A DNA stretch of 48,560 bases from Pseudonocardiales bacterium (lineage in GTDB: Bacteria; Actinomycetota; Actinomycetes; Mycobacteriales; Pseudonocardiaceae). A program made the position numbers and the translations under genes. Location of the stretch: positions 1 to 48,560 of the forward strand of contig JAHEXI010000026.1 of the NCBI GenBank assembly GCA_023252195.1. The letters run 5' to 3'. Positions 4,380 through 46,507 of this stretch are shown here, piece by piece. The notes under the pieces were generated by a model. That model had not been told where the DNA came from. It saw only the letters and a program-made list of their open reading frames with translations, and made no database searches. Each line of letters starts with the position of its first letter. Within the stretch, counting starts at the first letter, position 1.

Positions 4380-5155
4380 TGCCGATGTGGGTTGTCATCG
4401 TCGCGGCCCTGACCATCGACCCGCGCGTGATCGACAACCGGCAGGCTCGCGGCCTGGCGCTCGGGCAGGACACCGGGGAGCGGCCCTCTCGGCTGAGAAC
4501 GCTCATTGGGTCCCGGCCACTGCTCATTTCGCGATCACAATCATGCTCTTTCACCTAGCCAACGCCGCGATGCTGCCGATCATGGGTCAGAAACTCGCGA
4601 TCGGAAACACCGGCGAAGGAACGCTGTTCCTGGCCGCGTTGATCATCGTCGCGCAGGTGGTGATGATACCGATGTCGATCCTGGTCGGCCGGCGTGCGGA
4701 CCGCTGGGGACGCAAGGCCATCTTCCTCGCCGCGTTCATTGCGCTACCACTGCGCGGGGTGCTGTTCACGCTGTCCAACAACGCGGGCTATCTGATCTCG
4801 GTGCAGGTCCTCGACGGCGTCGCCGCCGGTATCTTCGGTGCCCTGTTCCCACTCGTGATCGCTGACCTGACCCGCGGCACCGGCCGCTACAACGTGACCT
4901 TCGGCGTGGCGTCGACGATGCAGGGGATAGGAGCGTCGCTCAGTACCACGGTGGCCGGCGTGATCATCGTATCGGTGGCTACGACCGGGCGTTCCTCGTC
5001 CTCGCTGGCATCGCGTTCCTCGCCCTGTTGATCTTCTTTTTCGCGATGCCGGAAACCGCTGCGGCCGAGAAACCCCGCTGGAGGCCGCCGTCATGGCGGC
5101 GCGAGAGCGCCGCGGCGGCGGGTAGCTCGGCTCTCACCGAGCCCGCGGGTCCATA
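4380..5155 (+). pseudogene. Major facilitator superfamily transporter, C-terminal half, frameshifted
   Basis: Three frames joined end to end read as the second half of an MFS carrier. The first has TIDPRVIDNRQARGLA and SRLRTLIGSRPLLI. The second has FAITIMLFHLANAAMLPIMG, then RRADRWGRKAIFLAAFIALP and VLDGVAAGIFGALFPLVIAD. The third has YDRAFLVLAGIAFLALLIFF and AMPETAAAEKPRW, ending at a TAG near 5155. Shifts fall near 4520 and 4973. The first six transmembrane helices are missing, so this is not functional. The RADRWGRK loop is the MFS signature between helices 8 and 9. Confidence 0.8.
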
Positions 5156-5165
5156 GGTGCGACGA

Positions 5166-5561
5166 TCAACCGCCAGGCGGTGGGGGCGGCGGCGCGAGTT
5201 GGCCGGGCGGTGGAGGTGCTGGGGCGCCCGGGGGTGGGGTGGGCTGTCCAGGCGCTAACGGAGTCGCAGCGCCCCCCGGAGCACGCGGAGCCAGCCGTCG
5301 TCCGTGGTGTCCGCGGTGCGGGCGGCAGGCTGCGGTCAGTGGTTGTCCGGGTGTGGCTGAGGACTGACCTGCAACGGGGGTACCGGACCTGAAGTAGCTC
5401 GCTGGTGCGGCTGCGGCGCCGGTGATCACCGCGGCGGTGATCAGGCCGCCGGCCAATGCGCCACCGACGCCAACTGCCACGATCGGCCAGCGCAGCCGCG
5501 GTATCCAGCGAAACCTCCGGTTCGGCCGCTGTTCAGGCTCGGGTGTGGCGTTAGTGGTCAT
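5166..5561 (-). CDS. Small membrane-anchored proline-rich protein
   Basis: A 131-residue protein: a short basic cytoplasmic segment (NRRFRWIPRLRWP), one hydrophobic helix (IVAVGVGGALAGGLITAAVI), then an exported tail ending in Pro/Gly-rich repeats. The ATG at 5561 was chosen because the longer upstream frame runs through the divergent promoter. It is divergent from the response regulator gene across an 11-bp inverted repeat, which suggests it is a target or accessory envelope protein of that two-component system. No enzymatic motif is present and the function is unknown. Confidence 0.6.
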   Translation of the reverse strand: MTTNATPEPEQRPNRRFRWIPRLRWPIVAVGVGGALAGGLITAAVITGAAAAPASYFRSGTPVAGQSSATPGQPLTAACRPHRGHHGRRLAPRAPGGAATPLAPGQPTPPPGAPAPPPPGQLAPPPPPPGG

Positions 5562-5626
5562 GGCGTGCTCCCAGTGCGATCGGTATTCGTCAGGCGATAG
5601 GGGCCACGCTGGTCGCGACAACTGAA

Positions 5627-5672
5627 GCGAACCTGAGGACCGCGCCGAAACGAGGCATCTACTCAGGTTCGC
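5627..5672. promoter_or_regulatory. Perfect 11-bp inverted repeat between divergent genes (candidate operator)
   Basis: GCGAACCTGAG at 5627-5637 is repeated in perfect inverse as CTCAGGTTCGC at 5662-5672, with a 24-base spacer. It lies between the Pro-rich protein gene and the response regulator gene. The position suits binding of the adjacent OmpR-type regulator for autoregulation. That is inference, since no binding consensus is known to me for this regulator. Confidence 0.5.
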
Positions 5673-5701
5673 CTCAGCATCAATCCAGACACAATGACGA
5701 A

Positions 5702-6415
5702 GTGAACGCTCGACAGCGAACACCACCACCACCTCCTCGTGGCTCGGCCACGGCGCGCGTGCTGGTGGTGGAGGACTCCGAAGCGATCCGGGAGATGGTC
5801 GTCGAAGCCCTCGTCGATGCCGGCTACGTCGCGGGCGGGCGGGTTGATGGCGCCGGGTTGGAGGATGTGCTGGAGGCGTTCCGCCCGGATCTGGTGCTGC
5901 TGGATGTGATGTTGCCCGGCCGCGACGGATTCGCCCTGATCGATGTGGTGCGCGGCTACGGCGATGCCGGGATCGTGTTGCTCACCGCCAGGGACGAGCT
6001 GCCGGACCGGGTGCGCGGGTTGGACGGTGGCGCGGATGACTATGTGGTCAAACCGTTCCTGCTGGCCGAGCTGGTCTCCCGGGTCGGCGCGGTGCTGCGG
6101 CGCCGCGGGGCGATCCCCTCGGCGATCCAGCTCGGTGACGTCGTTCTGGACATCGAAGCCGGCCAGGCCAGCCGCGCCGGCGTGGTACTGGAGCTGACTG
6201 CGACCGAGCTGCGGCTGCTGTCTTACCTGGCCCAGCAGCGCGGGCGCACCGTGAGCAAGGACCAGATCCTCACCGCGGTCTGGGGCTATGACGCCTACGA
6301 TCCCAACCTCGTCGAGGTCTACATCAGCGGGCTGCGCCGCAAACTCGAAGCCTACGGCCCCCGCATCCTGCACACCGTGCGCGGTCTGGGATATGTGCTG
6401 CGAGCCCAACCGTGA
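5702..6415 (+). CDS. OmpR/PhoB-family response regulator
   Basis: A 237-residue two-domain regulator. The receiver domain (about 18-130) has the acidic pocket VVEDSE, the phosphoacceptor Asp68 in LVLLDVM, T95 in LLTARDE and K117 in DDYVVKPF. The winged-helix domain (about 140-235) includes LTATELRLLSYLAQQRGRTV and ends with LEAYGPRILHTVRGLGYVLR, diagnostic of OmpR types. It binds DNA as a dimer when phosphorylated by the partner kinase, whose start overlaps this stop (GTGA, 4 bases). The GTG start at 5702 has no obvious ribosome binding site, and the N-terminal Pro-rich stretch may be non-native. Confidence 0.93.
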   Translation: MNARQRTPPPPPRGSATARVLVVEDSEAIREMVVEALVDAGYVAGGRVDGAGLEDVLEAFRPDLVLLDVMLPGRDGFALIDVVRGYGDAGIVLLTARDELPDRVRGLDGGADDYVVKPFLLAELVSRVGAVLRRRGAIPSAIQLGDVVLDIEAGQASRAGVVLELTATELRLLSYLAQQRGRTVSKDQILTAVWGYDAYDPNLVEVYISGLRRKLEAYGPRILHTVRGLGYVLRAQP

Positions 6416-7818
6416 CCACTGCGACGCCGTCGCTACGCCGACGGGTCACGCTGAGCGTGCTGTCGGTGTTCGCATTGCTGCTGGTGGTGGTCGCGATCGT
6501 GGTCGATGTGGCGTTGGGTGCCCAGCTGCGCCGCGACCTCGACGCACGGCTGGCCGACCGGTCGGCCCGCGCCGTCGTGCTGGCCGAGGCTGGCGCTTCC
6601 GCACCGGAGCTGGTGGCCGAGCTACAAGGCCAGGACATCCGGGTACGCGTCCGGACTCCAGACGGGGTCACCTACGGTGACCGCGGGCTCGGCCCATCGG
6701 TCGGTCCGAAGCCGCTGCCACCGGGGCGACACCCCCACGGCCCGGCACCACGCCCACCCGCACCGACCAGCACCGTCGTGCACCGCACGCTGCCGGACGG
6801 TTCGCGGCTGACCCTGGTCGCGGACACCACGGCGATCACTGAGGTGCATCGTCAGCTGCGGTGGGTGCTGCTCGGCGCAGGCCTTGCCGCCGTGCTGCTG
6901 GCGGCGGCCTTGCTGGTCGCGACGATCGGGCGGGCGCTGGGTCCGTTGGACCGGCTCACCGCGCTGGCCCGCCGGATCACCGCAGGGGACCGGGGGCAGC
7001 GGCTGCGCCCGGACCGGGCCGGAACTGAGCTCGGCCGCGCCGCCGATGCCTTCGACCGGATGCTCGACGCGCTAGAGGCGGCCGAAACCCGCGCACAGAG
7101 CGCCGCCACCCGCGCCCAGCGCGCGGAGGCCGATACCCGCCAGTTTCTCGCCGATGCCGCCCACGAACTGCGCACCCCGCTGGCCGGCATCCATGCCACC
7201 GCAGAGCAACTCGCCACCGCCCCCGACACCAACGCCGAACCCCGCCAGCAGCGCCGCGCCGCCCTGCTCATGCGCGAAACCGCCCGCGCCTCGCGGTTGG
7301 TTACCGACATGCTCGACATGGCACGCATCGACGCCGGCCTCGAACTGCGCATCGAACCCACTAACCTCGGCACGCTCATCGACGGGGAAATTGACCGGAC
7401 CCGGTTACTGGCACCGCAGCTGTCGGTGCAGCGCACTGGCCTTCCACAGCTGGTCGCACCGGTGGACCCCACCCGGATCTGCCAGATCCTGTCCAACTTG
7501 CTCGACAACGCCCGCCGCCACACTCCCGCTGGCGGGCACATCACCATCGATCTCGCCCGGGTGCTGGACCGCGCCGAGATCACCGTTACCGACAGCGGAC
7601 CCGGAATTCCCAGCACCGATCGGGACCGCATCTTCGACCGCCTCGTGCGGCTGACCCAAGCCCGGGACCGCGACACCGGGGGCGCCGGTCTCGGCCTGTC
7701 CATCGCCCGCGGTCTCGCCCGCGCTCACCACGGCGAGCTCACCTGCCTACCCCACCCCCACGGCGCCCGGTTCCAACTCACCCTGCCGCGCTGCGAACCA
7801 GCGCCGGGTTGTCCATGA
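6412..7818 (+). CDS. Sensor histidine kinase of the two-component pair
   Basis: A 468-residue membrane kinase. TM1 is about 12-35 (VTLSVLSVFALLLVVVAIVV), then comes an extracytoplasmic segment with a Pro/His-rich patch (PLPPGRHPHGPAPRPPAPTS). TM2 is about 151-173, followed by a HAMP linker with the GPLDRLTALARRITAGD signature. The dimerisation domain carries the phospho-accepting His in FLADAAHELRTPLAG. The ATP-binding domain has the N box (LLDNARRHT), G1 (DSGPGIP) and G2 (GGAGLGLSIA). It phosphorylates the overlapping response regulator. The His-rich extracytoplasmic stretch hints at metal or pH sensing, which is only inference. Confidence 0.93.
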   Translation: MTTATPSLRRRVTLSVLSVFALLLVVVAIVVDVALGAQLRRDLDARLADRSARAVVLAEAGASAPELVAELQGQDIRVRVRTPDGVTYGDRGLGPSVGPKPLPPGRHPHGPAPRPPAPTSTVVHRTLPDGSRLTLVADTTAITEVHRQLRWVLLGAGLAAVLLAAALLVATIGRALGPLDRLTALARRITAGDRGQRLRPDRAGTELGRAADAFDRMLDALEAAETRAQSAATRAQRAEADTRQFLADAAHELRTPLAGIHATAEQLATAPDTNAEPRQQRRAALLMRETARASRLVTDMLDMARIDAGLELRIEPTNLGTLIDGEIDRTRLLAPQLSVQRTGLPQLVAPVDPTRICQILSNLLDNARRHTPAGGHITIDLARVLDRAEITVTDSGPGIPSTDRDRIFDRLVRLTQARDRDTGGAGLGLSIARGLARAHHGELTCLPHPHGARFQLTLPRCEPAPGCP

Positions 7819-7855
7819 TGAGGGGGCAGGCGGTATGTGACCGGAGGGAGCTGAT

Positions 7856-8713
7856 GTGACGAGCAGTGTTGCCGTGCTGGGGACCGGGATCATGGGCGCG
7901 GGGATGGCCCGCAGTCTGGTGAAGGCGGGACTGGACGTCACCGTCTGGAATCGCAGCGCGGACAAGGCCCGGCCGCTGGCCGATGACGGCGCCAAGGTCG
8001 TCGCGGACCCGACCGAGGCGGTGTCCGGGGCGGACGTCGTGGTCACGATGCTCTTCGACGTCGATGCGGTGGCCGAGGTCATGCAACGGGCGCTAGCCGG
8101 GACGCCAGAGCACGCGGTCTGGGCGCAGACCAGCACGGTCGGTCTCGCCGGCACCCAGCGTCTCGCCGAGCTCGCCGGCCGGTACGGCCGTGGCTACATC
8201 GACGCGCCGGTGCTTGGCACCAAGCAGCCAGCCGAGCAGGGGAAGCTGATCGTGCTCGCATCGGGACCACGCGAGCTGGCGCCTCGGGTGGAGCCGGTGT
8301 TCGAGGCGATCGGTAGTAAGACGGTCTGGGTCGGTGAGCGGGTCGGCGACGGGCATCGGCTCAAGCTCGCCCTGAACTCCTGGGTGTTGTCCATCACCGC
8401 CGCCACCGGGCAGGCCATCGCGCTGGCCCGCGACCTCGGCGTGGACCCACAGCTGTTCCTGGACACCATCGCCGGCGGCGGCACCGACAGCCCGTACGCC
8501 CAGCTGAAGGGCAAGACAATGCTCGCCGACGACTTTACGCCGGCATTCGGGTTGGCCGGCGCGGTCAAGGACGCCGAGCTCATCGTGGACGCGTTGCGGG
8601 AAGCCGGCGACGATCCGGCGCTGATGCAGGCGGTCCAGCACCTCATGTCGACCGCGGCCGCCGCCGGGCACGCGGACGAGGACATGGCCGCCGTGGTCTA
8701 CGCCTTCCGCTGA
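7856..8713 (+). CDS. NAD(P)-dependent beta-hydroxyacid dehydrogenase family protein
   Basis: A 285-residue member of the 6-phosphogluconate/3-hydroxyisobutyrate dehydrogenase superfamily. The N-terminal Rossmann motif is AVLGTGIMGAGMARSL with VTVWNRSADKA, where the Asn-Arg suits NADP(H). The substrate loop is DAPVLGTKQPAEQGKL, in the place of the family's DAPVSGG, and the catalytic Lys lies in HRLKLALNSW. Family members act on beta-hydroxyacids or on imines. The altered substrate loop makes hydroxyisobutyrate unlikely, so the substrate is unknown. It stands alone downstream of the sensor kinase, with GGAGGG upstream of the start. Confidence 0.85.
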   Translation: MTSSVAVLGTGIMGAGMARSLVKAGLDVTVWNRSADKARPLADDGAKVVADPTEAVSGADVVVTMLFDVDAVAEVMQRALAGTPEHAVWAQTSTVGLAGTQRLAELAGRYGRGYIDAPVLGTKQPAEQGKLIVLASGPRELAPRVEPVFEAIGSKTVWVGERVGDGHRLKLALNSWVLSITAATGQAIALARDLGVDPQLFLDTIAGGGTDSPYAQLKGKTMLADDFTPAFGLAGAVKDAELIVDALREAGDDPALMQAVQHLMSTAAAAGHADEDMAAVVYAFR

Positions 8714-14959: not shown

Positions 14960-15052
14960 ATGACATAGGACGTCCACATGTCGCGACAGACGACGGGAGT
15001 CGCTGCGGCGGCTGCGCTGGACCGGCTCGGGCCGAACGAAAGCGCGGGGTAA
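14960..15052 (+). pseudogene. 3' end of an older tyrosine integrase gene (scar of a previous element)
   Basis: Codons from 14960 read MT*DVHMSRQTTGVAAAAALD and RLGPNESAG before a TAA. The C terminus of the complete integrase at 27100-28239 reads MTQDVYMSRGTNGVAAAAAL then DRLAPPQ. About 30 codons are therefore clearly homologous, including the catalytic Tyr region, here Y to H and with a CAG to TAG nonsense change. The homology continues downstream (GGGTAAA..GGGTCGATCTT) up to attL. This is what remains of an integrase from an earlier element that used the same tRNA-Arg site. The segment 14642-14959 is probably also debris from that element, as one frame reads VGTVLYLGLEVAFTGALNPG, unassigned. 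Confidence 0.85.
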
Positions 15053-15091
15053 ACGTGGGGTCGATCTTGAACGGCGCTTGCCGCAAGTTCT

Positions 15092-15144
15092 TGACCTGCG
15101 GTGTTGCGCCCCCGGCAGGACTCGAACCTGCGGCCTAGCGATTA
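15092..15144. repeat. attL: 53-bp direct repeat of the tRNA-Arg 3' half
   Basis: Identical to 28288-28340 except C at 15121 against T at 28317. It covers the tRNA 3' end, T arm, variable loop and the 3' side of the anticodon stem, and identity stops inside the anticodon loop. This marks the element's distal junction. Recombination happened inside this segment. Confidence 0.92.
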
Positions 15145-15251
15145 CCAGAACCCGCTACCGGACAGTGCCGATTGTGACCGAACAGTTCGTCTGGCCAGCG
15201 CAGACACTTCTCAACAGTACGTACTGGTATCGGACGTTGACGGTTGTTTCA

Positions 15252-15267
15252 GGTAGGTAAAGGGTGG
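15252..15267. promoter_or_regulatory. Candidate integrase arm-type site, left end
   Basis: GGTAGGTAAAGGGTGG lies about 107 bases inside attL. A 15/16 match lies at 28240-28255, 32 bases inside attR, in the same orientation. A third, weaker relative (GGGGTAAACGTGGGG, 15046-15060) sits outside attL with the old integrase scar. Such short repeats flanking the core are expected arm-binding sites of tyrosine integrases. The role is inferred from position. Confidence 0.5.
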
Positions 15268-15289
15268 AGATGATCACGGGCTGGTTCCT

Positions 15290-15745
15290 CCTTGCCGCAG
15301 GACAGAGGGCGCCGGAGCGGGTATCCCGTCGCGTCGGCGGGCTCGTCCTGAAGCAGGCCAGGCGCAGGCGTCGAGGTGGAGCACCCGACGGCTGAACGAC
15401 CTCGACGCCTGCGCCTGGCCTGCTACACCTTCGGCGCCGACGCGACGGGATGCACGCGCCACTCTGGTGCCACCACTCTCACGGCCAGCAGAGGGACCAT
15501 CCCGGAGCGAGGCCCGCCGGAGGCACTGGGGTTGTTGATCTTAAATCGGTTGCGCTCTTCGGTGTGAACGCGGATTGGCCGTGCGTCCGCGTACCTGGGA
15601 GTGTCGTCGCGTGCCGCTGAAGTGCGGCGACGTGCCGGTGTGTATCGGCCCGTGCGTACTGGTTGCGACACTTCCGCTGACGGCTCGCTGACGGTGATCA
15701 TGTTAAGCGCCAGTCTGGAAGGCTGCGTCCTCGCTTTGACTCCCG
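15290..15745. repeat. Dispersed structured repeat, copy 1 (long hairpin form)
   Basis: It shares several blocks with the copy at 44.2-44.7 kb. An outer inverted repeat GCGGGTATCCCGTC (15317-15330) faces a diverged partner at 15444-15457. Inside it is a perfect 25-bp stem (15353-15377 with 15399-15423) and a 21-base loop, GGAGCAC...CTGAACG. Downstream, conserved patches run from TTGTTGATCTTAAATCGGTT to GCTGACGGTGATCA at about 15700. The inner stem sequence differs from that of copy 3 while pairing is kept and the loop ends are conserved. A minus-strand frame begins MITVSEPSAE here and MIIVSESSAE in copy 3, but a structural rather than coding role looks more likely. Confidence 0.75.
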
Positions 15746-15755
15746 AGATGCTGCG

Positions 15756-16316
15756 TTGCTCGCGGTGGCGGGCCACCTACGTCGGTTGATCCCGAACACC
15801 CTGGTATTCGGCCGCGACCAGTGTCGCCACCCACGGTCCACGGTCGGTTTCGATCGACCACCGCCTGCCCCGCGCCATCGGGATCGTCCGAGCCGGCGAG
15901 CTCCCCGACCAGCGCGTGGAATCAGACAACCCCGGTGACTCCCTCCGGCAACCGGGTCTGGCCAGCTATCACCCCGTCGGACTCAGCATTCACCGCGTCG
16001 ATGGCGTTGGAGGGTTGCAAGATTACTGGCCCGCTCGAAGACGGCGATCACGTCATCCAGCTCGTGAGCTACGGCGAAGCCTATGGCAGCCGTCGTGGCG
16101 CGGTGTCCCACAAATCCCGTACCGACGATCACGGCTAGCCTGCCTCACATGAGGCGTCGATTTCGGAGTCTCCTCGTCATCGGAGCTGCTGCTGCCGCGG
16201 TCGTAGGAACGGTTCAGCTTCGCCGCGAACGGCGCTCGACTGAGCGGGCCAGCTGCGGAGGGAGTGCAGTCCGCGGAGCAACGCAGCCCGCGACGGTGCT
16301 GAGGAGGCCCGAAGGA
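15756..16316 (+). other. Decayed sequence, no intact gene
   Basis: Short frames contain suggestive but unassignable pieces (GLASYHPVGLSIHRVDGV; ALEGCKITGPLEDGDHVIQL). The second loosely recalls the end of a flavin-reductase-like domain, and the evidence is too thin to name it. From 16149 a short frame reads MRRRFRSLLVIGAAAAAVVG, a possible truncated membrane-anchor gene, that runs in phase into the next gene without a stop. Confidence 0.35.
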
Positions 16317-17576
16317 GTGGCTCACGACCAAACCCGCGCCGATGCGCCGACGAGGCAGACCGACCAACCGCGGGCGTCGAACAAATCTGGCAACCAGCTG
16401 TCGTCAGGGGCGACTCCCTCGCTCTCCGAAAGGGATCACCACCTGCCCTGCAATGTGAGCGACTCAAACACGTCGACCCGTAAGCCCGGCAAACGTGAAC
16501 CGAGTTTCTTCAGACAGTGGGTCGTGCCACTTATCGCGGTCGCGGCGTCTTTCGGGCTGGCTTCGTACTTCATATGGCAAGGAGGTTTCGCTCCAAGCGA
16601 CAGAGAGCCGCAGGTTCGCGGCGGCCTTCTCCTGTTCGTCGCTGCACCCCTCGGCGACGATGTCGAGGCATCCGTAGACAGCACGATTCACCAAACAGGG
16701 TACGCAGGCATCTCACTCCTCAACCTGACGCTGACTTTCAACCGAGCATACCCAGGCCTGCGATGGTTCATCGCCGCATCAGGTCAATACAATCCTCACA
16801 TCGATACGGACCTCTACGCCTTCTGCGATCAGGGAGGGCGAGCATCGCGAATCGGAAATACGATTAAATGCGACGACAATGACTACGACGGTTCGGTTGG
16901 TGTCAAGTATGATTTTGCGGATCACATCGGCTCACTCGACGGGGGACGAATTCGAAAAATTACCGACTCTATGGATGGTTACCTCGACAGCGACACAGTC
17001 ATCGTGAGCGGAACACTCACCGGGAATAGCCAACGGTCGGCGAGCCCCGCGTTCACGACAGCGATCACTGTCCCTATGCACACGCTAACCGCCGCCCATC
17101 TCGGCAGTGACGAATACTTCACCTACCCACCTATTGCAATCTTTGACCGCGGAGACATCGGGATCGGTCCCGCGCTGGGCGAGATCGCTGCGGCCTACGA
17201 TACTCCAATGATCGCCCGATTCGGAGACAGCTCCACCGGGCTGCCCGTCAACTATCTAAGGCTGTCCTCCCTGACACTTGCTATCGATGTTGGCACAAGG
17301 GTAAGCCAGCTGAGTTGGGCTTCCCCACCCACAGCGCGAACCGATCAACTGCAATGGCGAAGCACTGGAGAGGGTTTCGACAACGTGAAGTTCACACTGC
17401 ATGATCCGTTTGCCGCGGACCGACTTTCTCGGGATGGTTTCATCGCAGGGGTCTTGGCCTCTATCGCAGCAAGTGCCCTCTTGTTGTTGCTAGAAAAATT
17501 CATCGACCGAAGCGTCGACCGGACACAGAATCTGTCGCTTGCGGAGAAGAGGAGCACGTCGTCGGACGTTCGATAA
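16317..17576 (+). CDS. Two-TM membrane protein with large extracytoplasmic domain, unknown function
   Basis: 419 residues. A polar ~60-residue N-terminal tail is followed by TM1 (WVVPLIAVAASFGLASYFIW), an exported domain of about 290 residues with two Cys (DLYAFCDQGG, NTIKCDDNDYDG), and TM2 near the C terminus (GFIAGVLASIAASALLLLLE) with a basic tail. I do not recognise the ectodomain. The GTG at 16317 has AGGAGG nine bases upstream, whereas upstream in-phase starts lack one. Codon use is less GC-biased than in the chromosomal genes. As cargo 600 bases upstream of the RT-HEPN pair, a defence-related membrane role is possible but unproven, and an IS110 remnant lies between them. Confidence 0.65.
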   Translation: MAHDQTRADAPTRQTDQPRASNKSGNQLSSGATPSLSERDHHLPCNVSDSNTSTRKPGKREPSFFRQWVVPLIAVAASFGLASYFIWQGGFAPSDREPQVRGGLLLFVAAPLGDDVEASVDSTIHQTGYAGISLLNLTLTFNRAYPGLRWFIAASGQYNPHIDTDLYAFCDQGGRASRIGNTIKCDDNDYDGSVGVKYDFADHIGSLDGGRIRKITDSMDGYLDSDTVIVSGTLTGNSQRSASPAFTTAITVPMHTLTAAHLGSDEYFTYPPIAIFDRGDIGIGPALGEIAAAYDTPMIARFGDSSTGLPVNYLRLSSLTLAIDVGTRVSQLSWASPPTARTDQLQWRSTGEGFDNVKFTLHDPFAADRLSRDGFIAGVLASIAASALLLLLEKFIDRSVDRTQNLSLAEKRSTSSDVR

Positions 17577-17647
17577 GTGGGCGACTTTACCGCAGGATTT
17601 TCCGCGTGGTCTTCTGGCAGGGGCAAGAGAGACCATGCGATCACCGA

Positions 17648-17985
17648 CGCATTCTCTGAACTATGACGGTGAGGTCGAGGTGTTTTCGGAGGGTGATTGC
17701 CAACCGGTCACCGGTCATCGGGGATATCGAATGATCCAACAGATCGACGGAGTCGGGCCGACCTTCGCCGCGATCTTCATCGCCGAGATCGGTAACGTTC
17801 ATCGGTTCGCCCGTCCGGAGAAGCTGTCCTGCTGGCTAGGGTTGACCGCATGGCATCGCGAATCCGACACCACCATGCGCTGCGGCTCGATCATCAGCCA
17901 GGGCTTCACCTTACTGCGCTGGGCGGCGATCGAGGCCTGCCAGCGCACCCGCCTGGGCGCCGAGCTGGCCGCGCACTCCAGCTAG
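17648..17985 (+). pseudogene. IS110-family transposase, C-terminal remnant
   Basis: The last ~100 codons include GYRMIQQIDGVGPTFAAIFI, AEIGNVHRFARPEKLSCWLG and HRESDTTMRCGSIISQGF, the Transposase_20 (IS116/IS110/IS902) domain. The N-terminal DEDD RuvC-like domain is absent, so it cannot act. It is not closely similar to the IS110 copy at 46.5 kb, which has GVAPIPASSGKT in the equivalent place, so it comes from a different insertion. The remnant ends five bases before the putative promoter of the RT operon. Confidence 0.8.
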
Positions 17986-17989
17986 ATGG

Positions 17990-18018
17990 TTGACGAGCTA
18001 CACCGGTTGATGTTGTAG
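17990..18018 (+). promoter_or_regulatory. Candidate promoter of the RT-HEPN operon
   Basis: TTGACG (17990-17995), a 17-base spacer and TTGTAG (18013-18018) make a plausible sigma-70-type promoter just after the IS110 remnant, leaving a leader of roughly 140 bases before the RT start. The leader contains a small perfect hairpin, GGTTTC-A-GAAACC, near 18044. The call rests on a consensus match only. Confidence 0.35.
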
Positions 18019-18165
18019 TAAGCTGCGTCGGCACAGCAACGGAGGTTTCAGAAACCATAACCAACGGTGCGAGAACAACAGAGAGCCCTAATGTTAAACG
18101 ATAGCAAGTGCGGGGGCATGTAATTAATTGCTTTTCGAGAGCGAAGCACCTGGGAGGCGCGCGAT

Positions 18166-19725
18166 TTGCGAAAGATGACTGAACGACTTGTCGGAAAGTT
18201 GCGACTGGACATCGCAATTGAGAAAGAGGCAAAAAGCACGCGCAATCTTGTGCCGCCGGAGATTGGCTGGGACAGGATTGTCGATAACTTGCCCACACTA
18301 CAGAGCTGGATAATATCGCAGCTCCGGGCGGGGTTCACTCCAGGTGGGCAACAAGTTATTGCTGTGCGCAAGGCCCAAGGGACACGTCCTCTCCCAATTT
18401 GGGGCGCAGTAGAGCGTATTATTTATCGCGCGCTGACAGATCTCGTACTCGGTGGTGAATTCAAACTCGACCGGTCGGCTGATGCATATTTAGCCTTCAT
18501 TAAGGCCCCGGTGCGATACAGCGAGCGACTACAGCGCGAGTCTAGAAAATCACAAGGCACGGACAATCTATTCTTCTTTTTGCAATCGGACATCGAGTAT
18601 GTTGTTAAGTCGGATATTACCGCCTTTTATCAGTACGTCGATCACGCGGTTCTGGGGCAGGAATTGCAGGCCCGTGGAGGCGACTTTGATGCCATCTCGC
18701 ACCTGTTGGAACTACTACGTGAGGTACAAGGGCGAGCGTATGGATTGCCGCAACTCCTCGACTCTTCCGATGAGTTATCTGAAATTTACATCGACCGCGT
18801 TGAGCGTCAGCTCCTGCGCCACGGATTAGCAGTTTGGCGCTTCAACGATGACTTTAGAATAGCGTGCCGAACGTACCACGACGCCCTGAACTCAATCGAG
18901 CAGCTTGATGCTGCCGCTCGAGACGTAGGCTTGGTTATCAGCGAATCCAAGACACTCACCTTCCGGTTCATGAATTACATGTTCGACAGCCTCAGTCTTA
19001 ATCGAGAGCCAGGAATGGATGGCGTGCTTCTGGATGATGTTGAAGCGGTTGTGGGGGACTATACGGACGATTTTTCGGAGGATCTAGAGGCTGCGAAGTC
19101 TTGTATCCATGGGGCTCAGGCAACCGATGTTGTCGACGAAGGCTTGGACCTTCGAAAAGTCAATACTGACAATCTTCGACTCTTGCGGCGAGCGCTGGGA
19201 AGCCTGACGCACGCGGCTGATGCCGGCGTAACTGAGGACATTCTGCGCCTATTTATCTACGCTCCAGCTCTAAGTCCAACATTGTTTCAATACCTTTCAT
19301 CAGTGTATTTAATAGCGCAGGATCGTGTCACTGCGGTCATCGACGAGATGATTAACCACGCGTCAATGAACGAGTGGCAACATCAATGGGTTTTGCGAAC
19401 CATCCACGATCTCAAACTGTTGAGAGAGGGAGCTTTAGGTCAGCTTGACAATCGTATTACATGGGTAAAAAATAAGCGACTCGAATCATCTTCTGCTATG
19501 ACTGGCGCTTACGCGACACTTGCACTTTCCGCCGTCAGGAGGATCGAGTTCGATCAGGTGATGAGGAGCTTGGAGGCGGCGCCCTCAGCTTTGTTGACCT
19601 GGTATGCAGCCGCCCTGCGCGAGCACTACGAGGTCGAACGCGAGCCCGAACTAAAAAGGCGGCTTGACGCGGTGGCGTCCATGTCGCCTTTGCACAAGGC
19701 TTTGGTTGAGGATGCAAGTTCGTAA
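18166..19725 (+). CDS. Reverse transcriptase of the defence-associated (Abi/UG-like) type
   Basis: 519 residues. The N-terminal half is an RT palm: RPLPIWGAVERIIYRAL (motif 1 region), VVKSDITAFYQYVDH with catalytic Asp150, GLPQLLDSSDELSEIYID (motif 4) and RFNDDFRI, where the YxDD box is FNDD with both Asp (228-229) kept. The C-terminal ~220 residues are predicted mostly helical with no intron maturase, integrase or CRISPR-associated domain. That layout matches Abi-type and unknown-group RTs, which act in phage defence. GGGAGG lies eight bases before the TTG at 18166, and ATG 18175 is an alternative. The 3' end overlaps the HEPN gene by 14 bases. No retron msr/msd was recognised upstream. Confidence 0.87.
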   Translation: MRKMTERLVGKLRLDIAIEKEAKSTRNLVPPEIGWDRIVDNLPTLQSWIISQLRAGFTPGGQQVIAVRKAQGTRPLPIWGAVERIIYRALTDLVLGGEFKLDRSADAYLAFIKAPVRYSERLQRESRKSQGTDNLFFFLQSDIEYVVKSDITAFYQYVDHAVLGQELQARGGDFDAISHLLELLREVQGRAYGLPQLLDSSDELSEIYIDRVERQLLRHGLAVWRFNDDFRIACRTYHDALNSIEQLDAAARDVGLVISESKTLTFRFMNYMFDSLSLNREPGMDGVLLDDVEAVVGDYTDDFSEDLEAAKSCIHGAQATDVVDEGLDLRKVNTDNLRLLRRALGSLTHAADAGVTEDILRLFIYAPALSPTLFQYLSSVYLIAQDRVTAVIDEMINHASMNEWQHQWVLRTIHDLKLLREGALGQLDNRITWVKNKRLESSSAMTGAYATLALSAVRRIEFDQVMRSLEAAPSALLTWYAAALREHYEVEREPELKRRLDAVASMSPLHKALVEDASS

Positions 19726-20302
19726 AGTCCCATTGGCACTGACAGAGGAGGCACTGGCCCTTCTCGCGGTGACGTATGCCGATTTCGCGCAGCTTGATCC
19801 ACCGCGTCAACAAGCAGGGCGCATTGACTTCGTCGGTAGCCTCGGCGCCTACGACTTCGGTCGGATTAGGTTAGAGTCCACCTACTTGCGCCTTATCAGC
19901 ATCGTGGAAGCATACGTCGACTCGATGTGTAGCAACCTATTCCGGAGGCACCTCGTTGATCAGGTGCCCGTGCTCCGAGCACTGATCACCGCCGCAGAGA
20001 CACAAGCAAGCATCAACTGGAAAGAACGAAAGTCCGCATTCAGCGATTACCACGGGGTGTCCCTTGGTAGCTGCAAGCGGTGGAGCGAACTCGACGCTGG
20101 AATTGATATTCGTAACACGATAGCGCATGGACTGGGAACCCTAACGAAACGGCAGCGAAACGACAAATCTCGCAACAAAATGAAAACGGTGGGCGCGGTT
20201 ATCGTAGATGATAGGCTGATGCTCAATGATAATGCGCTTGAGAGATGTCTCGTATTCACGAGGGAGTTCGTCAAGTCAGTCGATTCTAAGCTCGAACGTT
20301 GA
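19712..20302 (+). CDS. HEPN-domain protein paired with the reverse transcriptase
   Basis: 196 residues, largely helical. RLESTYLRLISIVEAYVDSM is followed by ELDAGIDIRNTIAHGLGTL, where R134-NTIA-H139 is the R-x4-H motif of HEPN ribonucleases, common effectors of abortive infection and toxin systems. The ATG at 19712 overlaps the RT stop by 14 bases, so translation is coupled. The in-phase TTG at 19664 would only add residues overlapping RT codons. In lactococcal AbiA an RT and a HEPN-type region occur in one chain, and here the two functions are split. The inference is that RT product or state controls the HEPN RNase during infection. Confidence 0.8.
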   Translation: MQVRKVPLALTEEALALLAVTYADFAQLDPPRQQAGRIDFVGSLGAYDFGRIRLESTYLRLISIVEAYVDSMCSNLFRRHLVDQVPVLRALITAAETQASINWKERKSAFSDYHGVSLGSCKRWSELDAGIDIRNTIAHGLGTLTKRQRNDKSRNKMKTVGAVIVDDRLMLNDNALERCLVFTREFVKSVDSKLER

Positions 20303-20376
20303 GTGTTAGTGTAACCAAAATTCTGCAGGAGCATTACGGGCTCCCCGCTGGGTGCAAGGGGCCGGACCGAAGGTGT

Positions 20377-20600
20377 GCTGGCCTGCCGCAGGGTAGGAGT
20401 GGCGAAGCGGGTATCCCGTCGCGTCGGCGAGCTTGTCTCGGAGCGCTTCCGGCGCTGACGTGGCGGGATACCCGCGCTCTGGCGACCCCACCACTGTCCG
20501 GGCCCGGACCTGGGGACCTGGGGCGATCCCGGAGCGAGGCCAGCCGGAGGCGCCTGGGCTGGGTTACGAGTGCAGGGACCTCGGGATTGGCTCGGGTGGA
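20377..20600. repeat. Dispersed structured repeat, copy 2 (short hairpin form)
   Basis: It begins with the shared GTGCTGGCCTGCCGCAGG block. Then GCGGGTATCCCGTC (20407-20420) pairs with GGCGGGATACCCGC (20462-20475), and a CGTCGGCG/CGCTGACG helix lies inside. It lacks the long inner stem of copies 1 and 3 and the downstream conserved patches, but keeps the following GATCCCGGAGCGAGGCCAGC block. It lies between the convergent HEPN gene and the large HEPN-like gene, where the hairpin could also end transcription from both sides. Confidence 0.7.
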
Positions 20601-20601
20601 C

Positions 20602-22041
20602 TTACCGGCACCGGTCCATTGGCGAGTTTGAAATGACTGTTTGTGAGCGAGGGAACGCCAAGGGCGTTCGAACATCTGGCAGGATGATTTCGGCTGGATT
20701 CCCGCGAGTGGACCAAGAAGGCATGTCCTGGTAGGAGCCTCTTTCGAGGGTTTCAACAGGGCATTGGTGGCACTGTCCTGTTTTGGCGCATCCGCCGACG
20801 GTCAGCAGTGTGCGGACGTGGTGATAGGCGTCCTTGGGGAAGTCAGCCTTCATGGCGTACCAAGTCCCGCTCTGCTCGTCAGGAAGTAGCGTGGCGGCGG
20901 CCGATGGCCGGATGGGTAGGTGCAACTGCTCGCCGGCTCGGCGTACGAGGAAGGTTCGATCAAGATAGTCACACTCGTCCGCCTCGGGTCGGTTGGTAGT
21001 CCACCATGCGGTTGCATCTGCCAGTGTTCCGGGTCCCCATAGGAGATCGGCTGGGAAGTGTGTTGCTTCGACACGGGTGTCGAAGTGGGTCAGTCCTGGG
21101 TCGGAGAGTCGGTCGGCGGGTCGAAAGAATGCCCTGACGATGGCGCATTGCCACTCCCGGTCCTCGGGATCCACCGCATCAGGCAGCGCCTCGGCGAGGG
21201 CAATGTGGACGCCATCACCGTCTGTGGGCCACGCGATGACGACGACCTCACGCGTGATCGGTGCCGGGTAGAGGCGCCCTCCCGGTGTCGGGCATCCCCA
21301 CAGGTGATTGATAATCTCGGCAAGATCACTCAGAGTGCGGGCAGCCTGTACGGGATTGACCAGGTGATAGTTGGTCGGGTGGGCGACGAAGTTCCGGAGG
21401 TTCGACAGCACTCCCTCGACGCCGCGATTGCGCTGACCACGCAGTAGACCAACGTGCCTGGCCCACGCGCTCAGCCCCGCCAGCATCCCGTTGAACTTGA
21501 TGGGCATTCTGCCGTCGACGACCAGCAGCCATTTCTTCTTGCTCTTGACGATCTCATATACCTGCTCATAACGCTCGGCGCTCACTACGTGCTCGGTCTC
21601 CCCTTCCACGAACCGGACCGTGCCCTGGTGGTAGTCGACGAACCGGTCGCGGAGGGCTTGTTCGAGCACGAGCAGGGCGTGGTCGTTGACCAGGGTGAAG
21701 ATGTCGTAGTAGAGCACCCCGTAGGCGAAGGTCCTTCGTAGCCTGTCGAAGCTCATCCGAGTGCCCTCGGCCACTGCTGGTGCCAACTCAAGTCTGGCCA
21801 TCTGTTCCTGCTGGAACTGAGCGGCGTCGGTCTCGGGCATCTTCACGCCGACGCCGAGGCCATGCGGTGTGAAGTACAGTGCACGTTCGTCAACCTCACG
21901 AAGCTCATCCAACGACTTGACCACCAAGGCTTCTCCAATCCTGAAGCGAACGACGCAGGATACGTTGTCGAGGGCCCCCCGTGAGGCATTCGGATCGCTC
22001 ACTGTGACGGTTGAAGGTCGGGCAGGTGGAGCCTTGCCCAC
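20602..22041 (-). CDS. Large protein with HEPN-like R-x4-H motif and C-terminal Cys cluster
   Basis: 479 residues, not a recognised family. The middle has helical stretches typical of HEPN folds (YYDIFTLVNDHALLVLEQAL with RDRFVDYH) and R216-NFVA-H221 in VLSNLRNFVAHPTNYHL, the R-x4-H RNase motif. The C-terminal region holds a C-x5-C-x2-C cluster at 418-427 (GGCAKTGQCHQCP), possibly metal-binding. Convergent with the RT-HEPN pair and inside the same element, it may be a second defence effector or a standalone nuclease. The GTG start at 22041 lacks a clear ribosome binding site, and a slightly later start is possible. The HEPN call rests on motif and helix pattern only. Confidence 0.6.
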   Translation of the reverse strand: MGKAPPARPSTVTVSDPNASRGALDNVSCVVRFRIGEALVVKSLDELREVDERALYFTPHGLGVGVKMPETDAAQFQQEQMARLELAPAVAEGTRMSFDRLRRTFAYGVLYYDIFTLVNDHALLVLEQALRDRFVDYHQGTVRFVEGETEHVVSAERYEQVYEIVKSKKKWLLVVDGRMPIKFNGMLAGLSAWARHVGLLRGQRNRGVEGVLSNLRNFVAHPTNYHLVNPVQAARTLSDLAEIINHLWGCPTPGGRLYPAPITREVVVIAWPTDGDGVHIALAEALPDAVDPEDREWQCAIVRAFFRPADRLSDPGLTHFDTRVEATHFPADLLWGPGTLADATAWWTTNRPEADECDYLDRTFLVRRAGEQLHLPIRPSAAATLLPDEQSGTWYAMKADFPKDAYHHVRTLLTVGGCAKTGQCHQCPVETLERGSYQDMPSWSTRGNPAEIILPDVRTPLAFPRSQTVISNSPMDRCR

Positions 22042-25164: not shown

Positions 25165-26883
25165 GTGAGGATAACCAGACCCACCGGGCCGGACGCAAGC
25201 CCCCTCCCGGTGATGAATGAGAACCGCACCGAACTGTCGGCCACCACTTCCCTCGACACGGCGCGGATGACCCGGGCGCAGCGGGCCGCACTGCCGGTGA
25301 GTGCTGATGTCGCCCGGGCTCTGGCCGAACAACACGGCGTCTGCATCCGGCCATTAGCCATGCGCCGGATCGACACCACCACCGGCCGCATCGACATCGT
25401 GCCTGTCCCCTGCGGGTCCACCCGAGAAGACCAATGCCCTCCATGTGCGGACAAGGCCCGCCGGTTGCGGATGGCCCAATGCCGCCAGGGCTGGCACCTC
25501 GACACCGAGCCGGTCACCGACCGGGCCAGGCCCAGTGAGGAGCACAAGGTGCTGATGGGCACCCGGGCCGATCTCTGCGCCGTCTACACCGAATGCAAAG
25601 CCATCGGCGACGAGATCACCTGTGAGCAGATCGCCGAGTCGGTCGCCGAACTCGACACCGAACTCCGCGCGGCCGGGGTACGCGGCCGGCTCACCCCCCT
25701 CGATCCACCGCCCAAGCCGGTCAAGCGATCAACCCGACGTCGCCAGGACGCCCCGGACCTACCCCGCCGACCAATCGAACGGCGCACCCTGGGGCGGGTA
25801 TTCGCCGGGCGCTACCGGCCCTCCACGTTCCTGACCCTCACCCTCGACTCCTACGGCCGCGTGGACAACGAGGGCGCGGCGATCGATCCGGACCGGTATG
25901 ACTACCGGCGGGCCGCGCGGGACGCGATCCACTTCCCGGCGTTGCTGGACCGGTTCTGGCAAAACACCCGGCGCTGTGTGGGGTGGGATGTGCAGTACTT
26001 CGGCACCGTCGAACCCCAAAAACGCGGCGCCCCGCACTTCCACGCCGCCATCCGAGGAGCCATCCCCCGCGCCGAGCTACGGGCCATCACGGCCGCGACC
26101 TATCACCAGGTGTGGTGGCCCGCGCATGACCAACTCGTTTACACCGACGGGCGGCTCCCGGTCTGGGACACCAGAGCCAAGGCCTTCACCGACCCCGACA
26201 CCGGGACACCGCTGCCCACCTGGGACCAAGCGTGCGAGGAGCTGACCGAACCCGCACACGTGGTCCGGTTCGGGACCCAGGTGCACGTCAAGGGCATCCT
26301 TGGTGGCACCGAGGAAGCTGGTCGCCACGTCGGCTACCTCACCAAATATTTAGCCAAAAGCGTAGGACAGGCCGCCGGCCTCACTAAGCACACCACCGAC
26401 GCCCACCGCGACCACGCCCACCGGCTCCACGCCCAACTCCGCGTCACACCCTGCTCACCGCGCTGTGCGGTGTGGCTGCTCTATGGCGTCCAGCCCCACG
26501 GTGCCCGGCACTCCATGACGCCGGGACGGTGCAAGGGCAAAGCCCACCAACCCGAACACCTCGGCATCGCCGGACGGCGCGTGCTCGTGTCCCGGAAATG
26601 GTCCAACAAAACCCTCGACGACCACCGCGCCGAACGCTCCGCGTTTGTTCGGCAACTCCTCGAAGCCGTCGGCATCCAACCCTCCCACGGTCCCCAGGAC
26701 GGGCCCTACGTATGGGAACGCCCCGCACCCACCGACCCCGACATCCCACCCCGACCCGTCCTGCTGCTGCGTGCCGTCGCCGAACGACAGCGATGGAAAG
26801 CCGAATACACCGCAGCCCAACTCACCGCCAACGACCCACCACCCGAGACGAACCGTTCGGCAACTACCGATCAAGCCGCGTGA
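25165..26883 (+). CDS. repSA: RepSA-like rolling-circle replication initiator
   Basis: A 572-residue initiator that nicks the element's double-strand origin. PHFHAAIRG supplies the HUH metal-binding motif. HVGYLTKYLAKSVG carries the catalytic-Tyr motif (YxxKY). FLTLTLDSYGRV is the first Rep motif. An early Cys pair, CPPCADKARRLR, and a later CSPRC suggest zinc binding. The size and order (rep, xis, int toward the tRNA) match pSAM2-type AICEs, which replicate after excision. The GTG at 25165 has AGGAG nine bases upstream. The gene is followed by the excisionase gene after 12 bases, so rep-xis-int form one operon. Confidence 0.88.
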   Translation: MRITRPTGPDASPLPVMNENRTELSATTSLDTARMTRAQRAALPVSADVARALAEQHGVCIRPLAMRRIDTTTGRIDIVPVPCGSTREDQCPPCADKARRLRMAQCRQGWHLDTEPVTDRARPSEEHKVLMGTRADLCAVYTECKAIGDEITCEQIAESVAELDTELRAAGVRGRLTPLDPPPKPVKRSTRRRQDAPDLPRRPIERRTLGRVFAGRYRPSTFLTLTLDSYGRVDNEGAAIDPDRYDYRRAARDAIHFPALLDRFWQNTRRCVGWDVQYFGTVEPQKRGAPHFHAAIRGAIPRAELRAITAATYHQVWWPAHDQLVYTDGRLPVWDTRAKAFTDPDTGTPLPTWDQACEELTEPAHVVRFGTQVHVKGILGGTEEAGRHVGYLTKYLAKSVGQAAGLTKHTTDAHRDHAHRLHAQLRVTPCSPRCAVWLLYGVQPHGARHSMTPGRCKGKAHQPEHLGIAGRRVLVSRKWSNKTLDDHRAERSAFVRQLLEAVGIQPSHGPQDGPYVWERPAPTDPDIPPRPVLLLRAVAERQRWKAEYTAAQLTANDPPPETNRSATTDQAA

Positions 26884-27099: not shown

Positions 27100-28239
27100 A
27101 TGGGACGACCACCGCTGCCAGTCGGCACTTACGGCCGGATCAAGGTCGACAAGCTCGATGAGCGCCGGTTCCGCGCCCGCGCGAAGTACCGCGACTACGA
27201 CGGTGTGACGCGCAAAGTTGAGCGTGTTGGTTCGTCGCGTACCGCGGCGGAGAACAACCTTAAACAAGCCCTGCGCGACCGGGCGCATGTTTCGGCCGAT
27301 GGTGAGATTACGGCACGGACCAAGGTCTCGAGGCTCGCCGAGCTGTGGCTCCGGGACATCGACGAGTCCGACAGAGCTATCCGGACCAAGATCACCTATC
27401 GCGATGTGTGGGAACGGTGCCTTTCCGCGCCGGTGGGGGAGCTGCGGATCGGCGACGTCCAGGTGTCCGGAGTGGACCGGGTGGTGCGGGAAATCCGCGA
27501 GCGCCGGGGTGCTGAGAGCGCCCGGCACGCCAAGATCGTGCTCTCAGGCATGTTCAGCCTGGCGGTGCGTCACGATGCGATGGACGTCAATCCGGTGCGT
27601 GAGCTGAGCCGGTCGAGGAAGAAGAAGGTACCGCGCGCGGTCGAGCTGACGGAGGACACTTTTGCTTCGCTGCGCGTGCATATGCGCGCCTCACCCGAAG
27701 CGGCGAAGTACGATCTCGTGGACATGGTCGACGTGCTCTCTGGGCTCGGTTGCCGCATTGGGGAACTACTCGCACTCGACTGGACAAAGGTCGACGCGGA
27801 CGCTGGCACTTTGAGCATCAAGGGCACGGTGATCCGAATTCCCGGCGAAGGGCTGATCGTGCAGCCGCACACCAAATCGAAGGCGGGCATGCGGACGATC
27901 ACCCCGCCGACCTGGGTCCTGGACCTGCTCAAGCGCCGACACGTCGATTCGCTCTGCGCCTGGATCTTCCCGAGTACCACGCTCACCTTGCGCGATCCCG
28001 ACAACACCCGGGCCCGGCTGCGTGATGTCGTTCGGGGAACGCCGTGGGAAGGCCTGCATCCGCATGCGTTCCGGCATCTGGTGGCGACTCAGCTCGACCG
28101 AGCGGGCCTGTCGGCGCGGGAGATCGCCGACTACCTGGGCCACGAGCGGGTCTCGATGACGCAGGACGTCTACATGTCGCGGGGGACGAACGGGGTTGCT
28201 GCGGCTGCGGCGCTTGACCGGCTGGCGCCCCCACAATGA
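27100..28239 (+). CDS. Tyrosine site-specific integrase of the AICE
   Basis: A 379-residue recombinase. The N-terminal part contains the arm-binding region (KYRDYDGVTRKVERVG), and a SAM-like core-binding domain spans about 65-160. Catalytic residues are Arg in GLGCRIGELLALDW, Lys in the following beta hairpin, H-x-x-R in HPHAFRHLVATQLD, Gly-His in YLGHERVS and the nucleophile Tyr in TQDVYMSRG. It catalyses recombination between attP and the tRNA-Arg attB. The stop is one base before the right arm-type repeat, 63 bases from the tRNA 3' end. Its C terminus is homologous to the scar at 14960-15052. Confidence 0.95.
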   Translation: MGRPPLPVGTYGRIKVDKLDERRFRARAKYRDYDGVTRKVERVGSSRTAAENNLKQALRDRAHVSADGEITARTKVSRLAELWLRDIDESDRAIRTKITYRDVWERCLSAPVGELRIGDVQVSGVDRVVREIRERRGAESARHAKIVLSGMFSLAVRHDAMDVNPVRELSRSRKKKVPRAVELTEDTFASLRVHMRASPEAAKYDLVDMVDVLSGLGCRIGELLALDWTKVDADAGTLSIKGTVIRIPGEGLIVQPHTKSKAGMRTITPPTWVLDLLKRRHVDSLCAWIFPSTTLTLRDPDNTRARLRDVVRGTPWEGLHPHAFRHLVATQLDRAGLSAREIADYLGHERVSMTQDVYMSRGTNGVAAAAALDRLAPPQ

Positions 28240-28287: not shown

Positions 28288-28340
28288 TGACCTGCGGTGT
28301 TGCGCCCCCGGCAGGATTCGAACCTGCGGCCTAGCGATTA
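28288..28340. repeat. attR: 53-bp direct repeat within tRNA-Arg
   Basis: Matches attL with one difference (28317). It overlaps the 3' half of the tRNA gene, ending inside the anticodon loop, so the integrated element restores a complete tRNA. The element lies to its left. Confidence 0.93.
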
Positions 28341-28376
28341 GAAGTCGCTTGCTCTATCCGGCTGAGCTACGGGGGC
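28303..28376 (-). tRNA. tRNA-Arg (anticodon UCU)
   Basis: The minus strand folds as a complete cloverleaf. The acceptor GCCCCCG pairs with CGGGGGC, the D arm is GCTCAGCCGGATAGAGC, the anticodon stem is AGCGA/TCGCT with loop CTTCTAA (anticodon TCT), and the T arm is GCAGG-TTCGAAT-CCTGC. CCA is not encoded. It reads AGA codons and serves as the integration site of the element. Confidence 0.96.
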
Positions 28377-44199: not shown

Positions 44200-44735
44200 G
44201 GCTGCGCTCACCGAGCCGTCAGGGGGGCCTCGATTGGTGGTCAGGCCGGATCACAGTGCCCCGCTGTTGACCGGTGTTAATGGCACGCCAATGGCACGCG
44301 CGGTGTGTTGGCCTGCCGCAGGACGGGGGCGGGGAGCGGGTATCCCGTCACACGTCGGCGAGCTTGTCTCGAAGCGGGCCGGGCTCAGCGGGCCAGGTGG
44401 AGCACCGCATGCGATGAACGACCTGGCCCACTGACCCCGGTCTGCTACGCCTCCGGCGCCGACGTGACGGGATACCCGCGCCCTGGTGACCCACCACTAC
44501 CCGGGCCCGTCCTGGGACCATCCCGGAGCGGAGGCCCGCCGGAGGTATGAGATTGTTGATCTTAGATCGGTTGTGCTCTTCAGTGTGAACGCTGATTGGC
44601 GTGCGTCCGCGTACCTGCGAGTCTCGTTGCGTTCCGTTGAGCTGCGGCTACGTGGTGGCGTGAAGCGACGCGTACGGTCTCGTCGTGCCGCTTCCGCTGA
44701 CGACTCGCTGACGATGATCACCTGCGGACGCGGCT
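44200..44735. repeat. Dispersed structured repeat, copy 3 (most complete)
   Basis: The shared 5' block runs from TTGGAAGGCTGCGC (about 44194) through CCGCTGTTGACCGGTG and TTGGCCTGCCGCAGGACGGG. A perfect 14-bp outer stem follows (44336-44349 with 44466-44479). Inside is a 9-bp inner stem (44390-44398 with 44421-44429), extended by an almost complementary helix, closing a 22-base loop, GGAGCAC...GATGAACG. The downstream patches shared with copy 1 start at TTGTTGATCTTAGATCGGTT and end at GCTGACGATGATCA. It lies outside the integrated element, so the family is chromosomal or mobile in its own right. Confidence 0.75.
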
Positions 44736-46059: not shown

Positions 46060-46507
46060 GCATGGGGCTTGAACCCAGAACCCAAGGATTCTCGGACCAT
46101 GGTCGTGGTTGTTCGTGGATAGGACCATTACCTGCGGTGTTCGCGACTGCAAACGCTCATCGTTTGTGGTCATCTTGGGCTGTATGGATGCGTTTTGTGA
46201 CCGTAAAGTGTCCAAACGATCATTGGCCCACTGTGATCTGGACCCTGGGGGTCGTGTGGTATCCCGTCGGCAGTGAGATGGGATGTGGGCGGCACCGCTC
46301 GCTTGGGGTGTGACCCTCCGTCGACTGACGTGATGTTGCTGTCTTGGCCAGGATTGGTCGGCCTCGGCGTGTGCGGTGTCGTCTGTGTGTGCGGTCGGGC
46401 GGCGTGACCTGAGAGGAGCCTGTGCGAGTGGCACCCATCACTGTCTTGTCCGTTGCGCCCGACCGCAACGCGCTGACCCATCCGGTGTGAGCGGAAGTGG
46501 TGCAGCG
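46060..46507 (+). ncRNA. IS110 left-end leader with long stem; bridge RNA candidate
   Basis: The ~450-base non-coding region before the IS110 transposase contains a perfect 11-bp stem, GCGGTCGGGCG (46391-46401) with CGCCCGACCGC (46456-46466), enclosing a 54-base loop. IS110-group elements encode a structured bridge RNA in this left non-coding end that selects donor and target DNA. Location and folding fit, but guide loops were not matched to target and donor ends, so the call is tentative and the boundaries are approximate. Confidence 0.4.

Follow-up and report, generated by a model that had tools for sequence, protein, structure and literature searches.

The window, that is, the whole stretch of 48,560 nucleotides of a Pseudonocardiales contig that was analysed, carries a reverse transcriptase (RT) gene and, directly behind it on the same forward strand, a gene for a HEPN protein. 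The RT gene (18175 to 19725) encodes a protein of 516 amino acids when read from its ATG, with an RT fold followed by a C-terminal helical domain; a TTG at 18166 would give 519 amino acids and the same stop. Counted from the ATG, the catalytic aspartate of motif A is Asp147 (18613 to 18615; D150 from the TTG) and the FNDD active site spans residues 223 to 226 (18841 to 18852; 226 to 229 from the TTG). The partner gene (19712 to 20302) has an ATG start, encodes 196 amino acids and overlaps the RT gene, stop codon included, by 14 bases (19712 to 19725). Its product contains R134-NTIA-H139 (20111 to 20128), a predicted RNase motif of the form R-N-x3-H. Both reading frames, their overlap and these motifs had been described correctly, with TTG numbering for the RT residues, in an earlier note made from the letters of this DNA.

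An integrative element of 13.2 kb carries the pair as cargo, as the same note had proposed. The element is pSAM2-like because it combines a 53-bp att-like repeat at tRNA-Arg(TCT) with RepSA and an integrase. The left repeat (15092 to 15144) is identical at 52 of 53 bases to the right one (28288 to 28340), which overlaps the 3' part of the tRNA gene (28302 to 28376). The RepSA-type replication initiator (25165 to 26883, forward strand; RepSA of pSAM2, 3.9e-101) and the tyrosine integrase (27100 to 28239, forward strand; Phage_integrase, 3.8e-16) lie outside the RT system. Among plasmids, the element has no near relative; similarity there is limited to 40 bp from the tRNA repeat.

The best PADLOC-DB model for the RT was RT_UG22 (5.1e-123, 409.6 bits), followed at a distance by UG21 (98.1 bits), and the Pfam domain RVT_1 was matched at 6.4e-9. 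The partner matched RTasHEPN (2.3e-43, 146 bits). With values of this size, the identification of the RT, like that of its partner, is not attributable to chance; neither protein had an NCBIfam match above the cut-off. In the family test for group II introns, TIGR04416, the RT scored 49.8 bits against a cut-off of 300, and at gathering threshold Rfam returned tRNA-Arg alone from the whole window, with no intron or retron RNA. Thus, a group II intron or retron RT was ruled out, and the placement of the RT as Abi/UG-type, which the earlier note had named as one check on its reading, came out in favour of that reading. Its statement that intron, retron and CRISPR features were lacking also agreed with these searches, and no CRISPR-like array was present among the repeats of positions 15000 to 20700.

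The structure model of the RT (pLDDT 88.3) has an RT fold and helices from residue 304 to residue 511, which bears out the helical C-terminal half deduced before. The only segment of three or more residues with pLDDT below 50 comprises residues 275 to 301 (18997 to 19077, forward strand), a flexible loop between the RT and the helical domain. Judged from this model and from matches to Abi RTs, the protein is predicted to have the layout of UG/Abi class 1, an RT followed by an alpha-helical, HEAT-like domain. The top solved structures found with Foldseek were DRT4/UG15 (E, 6.9e-11), DRT6 (3.9e-9) and Abi-P2, the first two at about 13% sequence identity; further down the best 50 matches were group II intron-type RTs, AbiK, DRT9 and AbiA (E, 1.4e-7). 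The DRT and Abi proteins could be aligned over the greater part of the model, though with TM-scores relative to the query of only 0.36 to 0.57 among the matches listed, and of 0.38 to 0.57 for DRT4/UG15, DRT6, Abi-P2, AbiK and AbiA. A sequence search of the PDB placed group II intron and CRISPR RTs first, with UG15, Drt3a and AbiK weaker.

Members of the HEPN superfamily are described as having a helix 3 that ends in R-x4-6-H, with a polar residue after the arginine, and an acidic residue in helix 2 (PMC3710099). In the structure model of the partner (pLDDT 90.9), R134 to H139 fall in a helix of residues 124 to 140 and E66 in a helix of residues 49 to 79, so that R134-N-x3-H139 together with E66 correspond to these features. 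Family and fold searches outside PADLOC-DB gave weaker results. HEPN_RiboL-PSP was matched at 0.087, which is under the Pfam cut-off, the PDB sequence search gave no significant match, and none of the 327 Foldseek matches reached an E value of 0.001. The four best solved matches were HEPN toxin chains (E, 0.27 to 0.61). Within the family, RTasHEPN matched 23 of 23 aligned HEPN proteins, R-N-x3-H is present in all 25 aligned proteins and in 9 of 9 HEPN frames from the order survey described below (two of which repeat loci L019 and L022), and the acidic residue of helix 2 is glutamate in 24 of 25 and aspartate in the other.

RT_UG22 (PDLC03760) and RTasHEPN (PDLC03820) are already catalogued in PADLOC-DB under DRT. 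Both models presumably derive from the work of Mestre and others (2022). The two halves of the window pair match these models far better than any other, and nothing was found that sets the pair apart from the catalogued system. The UG22 RT-HEPN pair is a DRT module of two conserved genes, a new member of a group already catalogued and not a new kind. A literature search of limited coverage returned no experimental paper on UG22 RTs. What is fresh here is a division between RTs with and without a linked HEPN gene, an RNase motif that is intact across the family, and a candidate priming tyrosine.

Genome contigs were scanned once with an alignment of four RT sequences, which yielded 22 loci in named genomes, all of them in Actinomycetota, the search patterns having been built from actinobacterial sequences, so that other phyla could be missed. 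Each of the 22 has a HEPN frame directly behind the RT on the same strand, and in these loci, as in the window, it is separate from the RT. Two plasmid records with the RT, both from Rhodococcus, also have the HEPN gene. Adjacency of the two genes in other actinobacteria, another check named in the earlier note, was thus found, and the separate HEPN chain, which that note had counted as a novelty, is the rule among HEPN-linked relatives. A start codon that would overlap the RT gene is available to the HEPN frame in 22 of 25 loci, and in 15 of 25 an ATG or GTG sits at a 4-base overlap. At locus L061 (genome G475; 4401 to 8024, reverse strand) the HEPN frame is preceded by a divided RT, whose two pieces are separated by about 1.4 kb.

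The two genes have been inherited together. Pairwise identities of RTs and HEPN proteins co-vary over 22 loci with r of 0.913 (near copies L026 and L031 dropped), compared with a permuted maximum of 0.346 and none of 2000 permutations as high. The RT and HEPN trees have 10 of 19 splits in common, against a permuted mean of 0.2, and a HEPN partner is kept by RTs as little as 21% identical. No third conserved gene emerged from the flanks of 24 loci (400 bp upstream, 300 bp downstream), which lacked any general match; the matches found were confined to L009/L026, L030/L031 and L010/L011 (upstream), plus 16 bases shared by L012 and L030. No phage homologue was found at 1e-8, and 59 candidate stretches on viral contigs yielded no confirmed homologue.

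Genome surveys with the two PADLOC library models, at E values of 1e-30 or better for the RT and 1e-6 or better for HEPN, extended this picture. In 397 genomes of the order, the RT was present in 14 and HEPN in 10, all 10 among the 14 and G475 with its divided RT one of them. In G419, G614, G621 and G661 neither the library model nor our own HEPN profile detected a HEPN gene near the RT. Across 396 genomes of the phylum, the RT was found in 5, HEPN in 4 and both in 2; of the other three RTs, two (G340 and G078) had no HEPN nearby and one (G231) was on a 5-kb contig. Two related genomes, G342 and G105 (loci L034 and L035), code for weak RTasHEPN-like proteins with RNFIVH (E, 2.5e-9 and 6.4e-9) and had no RT_UG22 match at 1e-30.

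A tree was built from 38 RT rows, 36 of them different, and in it a branch with 100/98 support separates 32 HEPN-linked RTs from 6 HEPN-less relatives (L058, L059, L060, L062, L063 and L065); either group forms a clade only where the root falls within the opposite one. The RT_UG22 model takes in both sides, and the notion that it always denotes an RT plus HEPN was therefore ruled out. Among the HEPN-less RTs, L065 was matched weakly by the model (2.9e-34) and sits at the end of a very long branch. The window RT groups with those of Amycolatopsis pittospori and Lentzea aerocolonigenes (100/99). Copies were dropped (L001 of the window, L004 of L029), the RTs of L023 (two frames), L061 (two pieces) and L007 (a fragment) were kept outside the alignment and tree, and two identical pairs, L019/L042 and L022/L040, are among the 32 HEPN-linked rows. 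Structure models covered 22 RT rows and 23 HEPN rows, with L008 and L009 left out.

The motif A aspartate is invariant, being present in all 32 HEPN-linked rows and in all 6 HEPN-less ones. All 32 HEPN-linked RTs have DD in the active site, preceded by variable residues: FNDD in 11 rows, YNDD in 9, YADD in 7, YSDD and FADD in 2 each and TADD in 1 (10, 8, 7, 2, 2 and 1 among the 30 distinct RTs). The HEPN-less RTs have HGDD (four of six), VGDD (one) or YMDD (one). The suggestion in the earlier note that FNDD was unusual was not upheld, as this is the commonest form among HEPN-linked RTs, and a new subtype on the strength of FNDD was rejected. The wider suggestion of a potentially new subtype falls as well, since both halves have models in PADLOC-DB, while the note's interpretation of an Abi/UG-type RT with a conserved, separate HEPN protein, carried by an integrative element and probably directed against phage, is supported.

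The loop between the RT and the helical domain is poorly conserved except for Tyr296 (19060 to 19062, forward strand) and the acidic residues after it. Of the 32 HEPN-linked rows, 31 have Tyr296 (29 of 30 when identical RTs are counted once), and L064 alone is without any tyrosine in this stretch; among HEPN-less RTs the column holds a tyrosine in 1 of 6. The residue two positions on is aspartate or glutamate in 28 of 31 rows, and all 31 have one or the other within three residues. Another tyrosine, Y268, is present in 28 of 32 HEPN-linked rows, but in a predicted helix. AbiA is reported to have a partly disordered loop (residues 290 to 310) that joins the RT and helical domain and contains Tyr298 and Tyr303, either of which can prime (PMC11077055). 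By comparison with that loop, Tyr296 is proposed as the likely priming residue, although the alignment is gappy in this region.

AbiA of Lactococcus (PDB 8oz7) is alike in having an RT, a helical domain and a HEPN domain, with a tyrosine in the flexible RT-helical loop. However, its HEPN is fused to the RT and has R-x6-H, whereas the window has a separate HEPN chain with R-x4-H, and the AbiA model was absent from the best 25 of 42 PADLOC matches. DRT4 and DRT6 are described as single-gene systems, DRT4 making random single-stranded DNA (PMC13213688). Class 1 Abi RTs in general are reported to make untemplated, protein-primed DNA (PMC12632851, PMC13275509). The role in defence of untemplated DNA from Abi-type RTs is the wider question behind the UG22 pair.

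The UG22 RT-HEPN pair is probably anti-phage. The reading we lean towards, at a little better than an even chance, is a two-gene system in which a template-independent RT primed on Tyr296 controls the HEPN RNase, on infection, through the DNA bound to it. The RT, with its Abi-like helical domain, would synthesise untemplated DNA from its own Tyr296, so that RT molecules would become covalently linked to a DNA strand. This RT-DNA complex would be bound by the HEPN protein, the product of the overlapping gene. Phage infection might then alter the RT-bound DNA or the activity of the RT, upon which a HEPN dimer would be switched on to cut cellular or phage RNA and the infection would stop. That control should run from the RT-DNA complex to HEPN is suggested by a possible analogy with DRT1, an RT-nitrilase whose nitrilase effector is reported to be governed by DNA synthesis and by adducts of DNA on the RT; unlike the window pair, DRT1 belongs to class 3, has its effector fused and forms filaments (PMC13275509). 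Since RT_UG22 also matches RTs for which no HEPN was found, DNA synthesis without HEPN may suffice in relatives. Other observations also count against this reading: the HEPN of AbiA had no RNase activity and AbiA defence was unlike cell suicide (PMC11077055), two weak HEPN matches (G105 and G342) occur apart from any UG22 RT match, L064 is without the loop tyrosine, the Foldseek matches of the HEPN model are weak, and the RT model combines modest TM-scores with DRT9, an ncRNA user, and group II intron RTs among its fold matches. A sharper form of the reading, which we hold only tentatively and regard as rather unlikely as a whole, is a two-chain, retron-like alarm that dispenses with an msDNA gene: untemplated DNA on Tyr296 would hold or release the separate HEPN RNase, and the loop tyrosine and acidic residues would be confined to HEPN-linked RTs. 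The HEPN of AbiA is fused and seems silent, whereas that of UG22 is separate, co-inherited and intact in its RNase motif; with a candidate tyrosine named in the RT, priming and effector can therefore be mutated one at a time.

A split version of AbiA, in which the HEPN protein is a structural subunit that joins RTs into dimers and does not cleave, and in which the anti-phage agent is the untemplated DNA itself or the RT-DNA adduct, is unlikely, if less so than the other two alternatives considered here. Untemplated DNA has been proposed as the agent for AbiA or DRT4, and DRT4, the random DNA maker, is the best fold match of the window RT. Furthermore, the HEPN domain of AbiA is reported to be responsible for dimerisation, to be required for polymerase activity and to have had no RNase activity on the substrates tried despite its R-x6-H, and AbiA defence did not resemble cell suicide (PMC11077055). 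A scaffold should nevertheless need less conservation than is seen in the UG22 partner, which has kept R-N-x3-H and the acid in helix 2 while HEPN identity among loci falls to 13%. It is quite improbable that the pair mainly serves its element, the RT and its DNA restraining a HEPN toxin that stabilises the element or excludes rivals, with phage defence secondary. Such a role would suit carriage by an integrative element and by the two Rhodococcus plasmids, and the solved folds nearest to the HEPN model are HEPN toxins of toxin-antitoxin pairs. Against it, Abi and DRT relatives defend, and some genes flanking the 22 named loci match defence models, a comparison for which there was no control set. 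With at most three crude gene calls taken on each side of a locus, the best 25 of 217 PADLOC families included oligonucleotide cyclase, pPIWI-RE, PprDinG, PtuA, AriA and type I methylase models, each matched at 1e-8 or better by 1 to 3 of 125 gene calls; we take PtuA to stand for Septu, AriA for PARIS and the oligonucleotide cyclase for CBASS. Recombinase, resolvase and integrase domains occurred 2 or 3 times each among the neighbours (best 25 of 81 Pfam families).

Least probable, though close to the preceding alternative, is a class 2-like system in which an undetected ncRNA templates the RT and HEPN is the effector. DRT9, which is among the fold matches, is an ncRNA-using DRT, as DRT2, DRT3 and DRT10 are reported to be, and L010 (Amycolatopsis pittospori) and L011 (Lentzea) are 83% alike over the 155 bp that precede the RT. 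Yet the L010 stretch folds no better than its shuffles (z, 0.43; window, z of 1.01), ten aligned loci have no upstream sequence in common, and around the pair Rfam gave no family above threshold, the three weak matches below it being confined to a hairpin at 15.35 kb. Thus, neither upstream comparison nor folding nor Rfam supported an ncRNA beside the RT, and no conserved structured RNA was detected there by these tests, which a fast-evolving RNA could escape. A promoter and terminator scan gave no more sites than shuffled sequence.

Several other features lie near the pair. A gene on the reverse strand adjoining it (20602 to 22041) encodes 479 amino acids with an R-N-x3-H stretch, RNFVAH; it had no Pfam or PADLOC family and no plasmid match at 1e-6, and a role as second HEPN protein of the system was rejected, its likeness to the HEPN partner being the motif alone. 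Pieces of IS110-type transposases are located just upstream of the RT (17539 to 17985, Transposase_20) and far downstream (46376 to 47431, DEDD_Tnp_IS110). A repeat of roughly 250 bp, dispersed and rich in hairpins, occurs at 15290 to 15560, 20384 to 20551 and 44314 to 44581, so that copies bracket the RT-HEPN cargo. Positions 15300 to 15480 fold far better than shuffles (z, -9.95), and the second copy has a z of -2.72. The genome itself has 17 matching pieces on contigs C12, C19, C26, C36, C40 and C43, and the repeat is possibly a MITE-like element.
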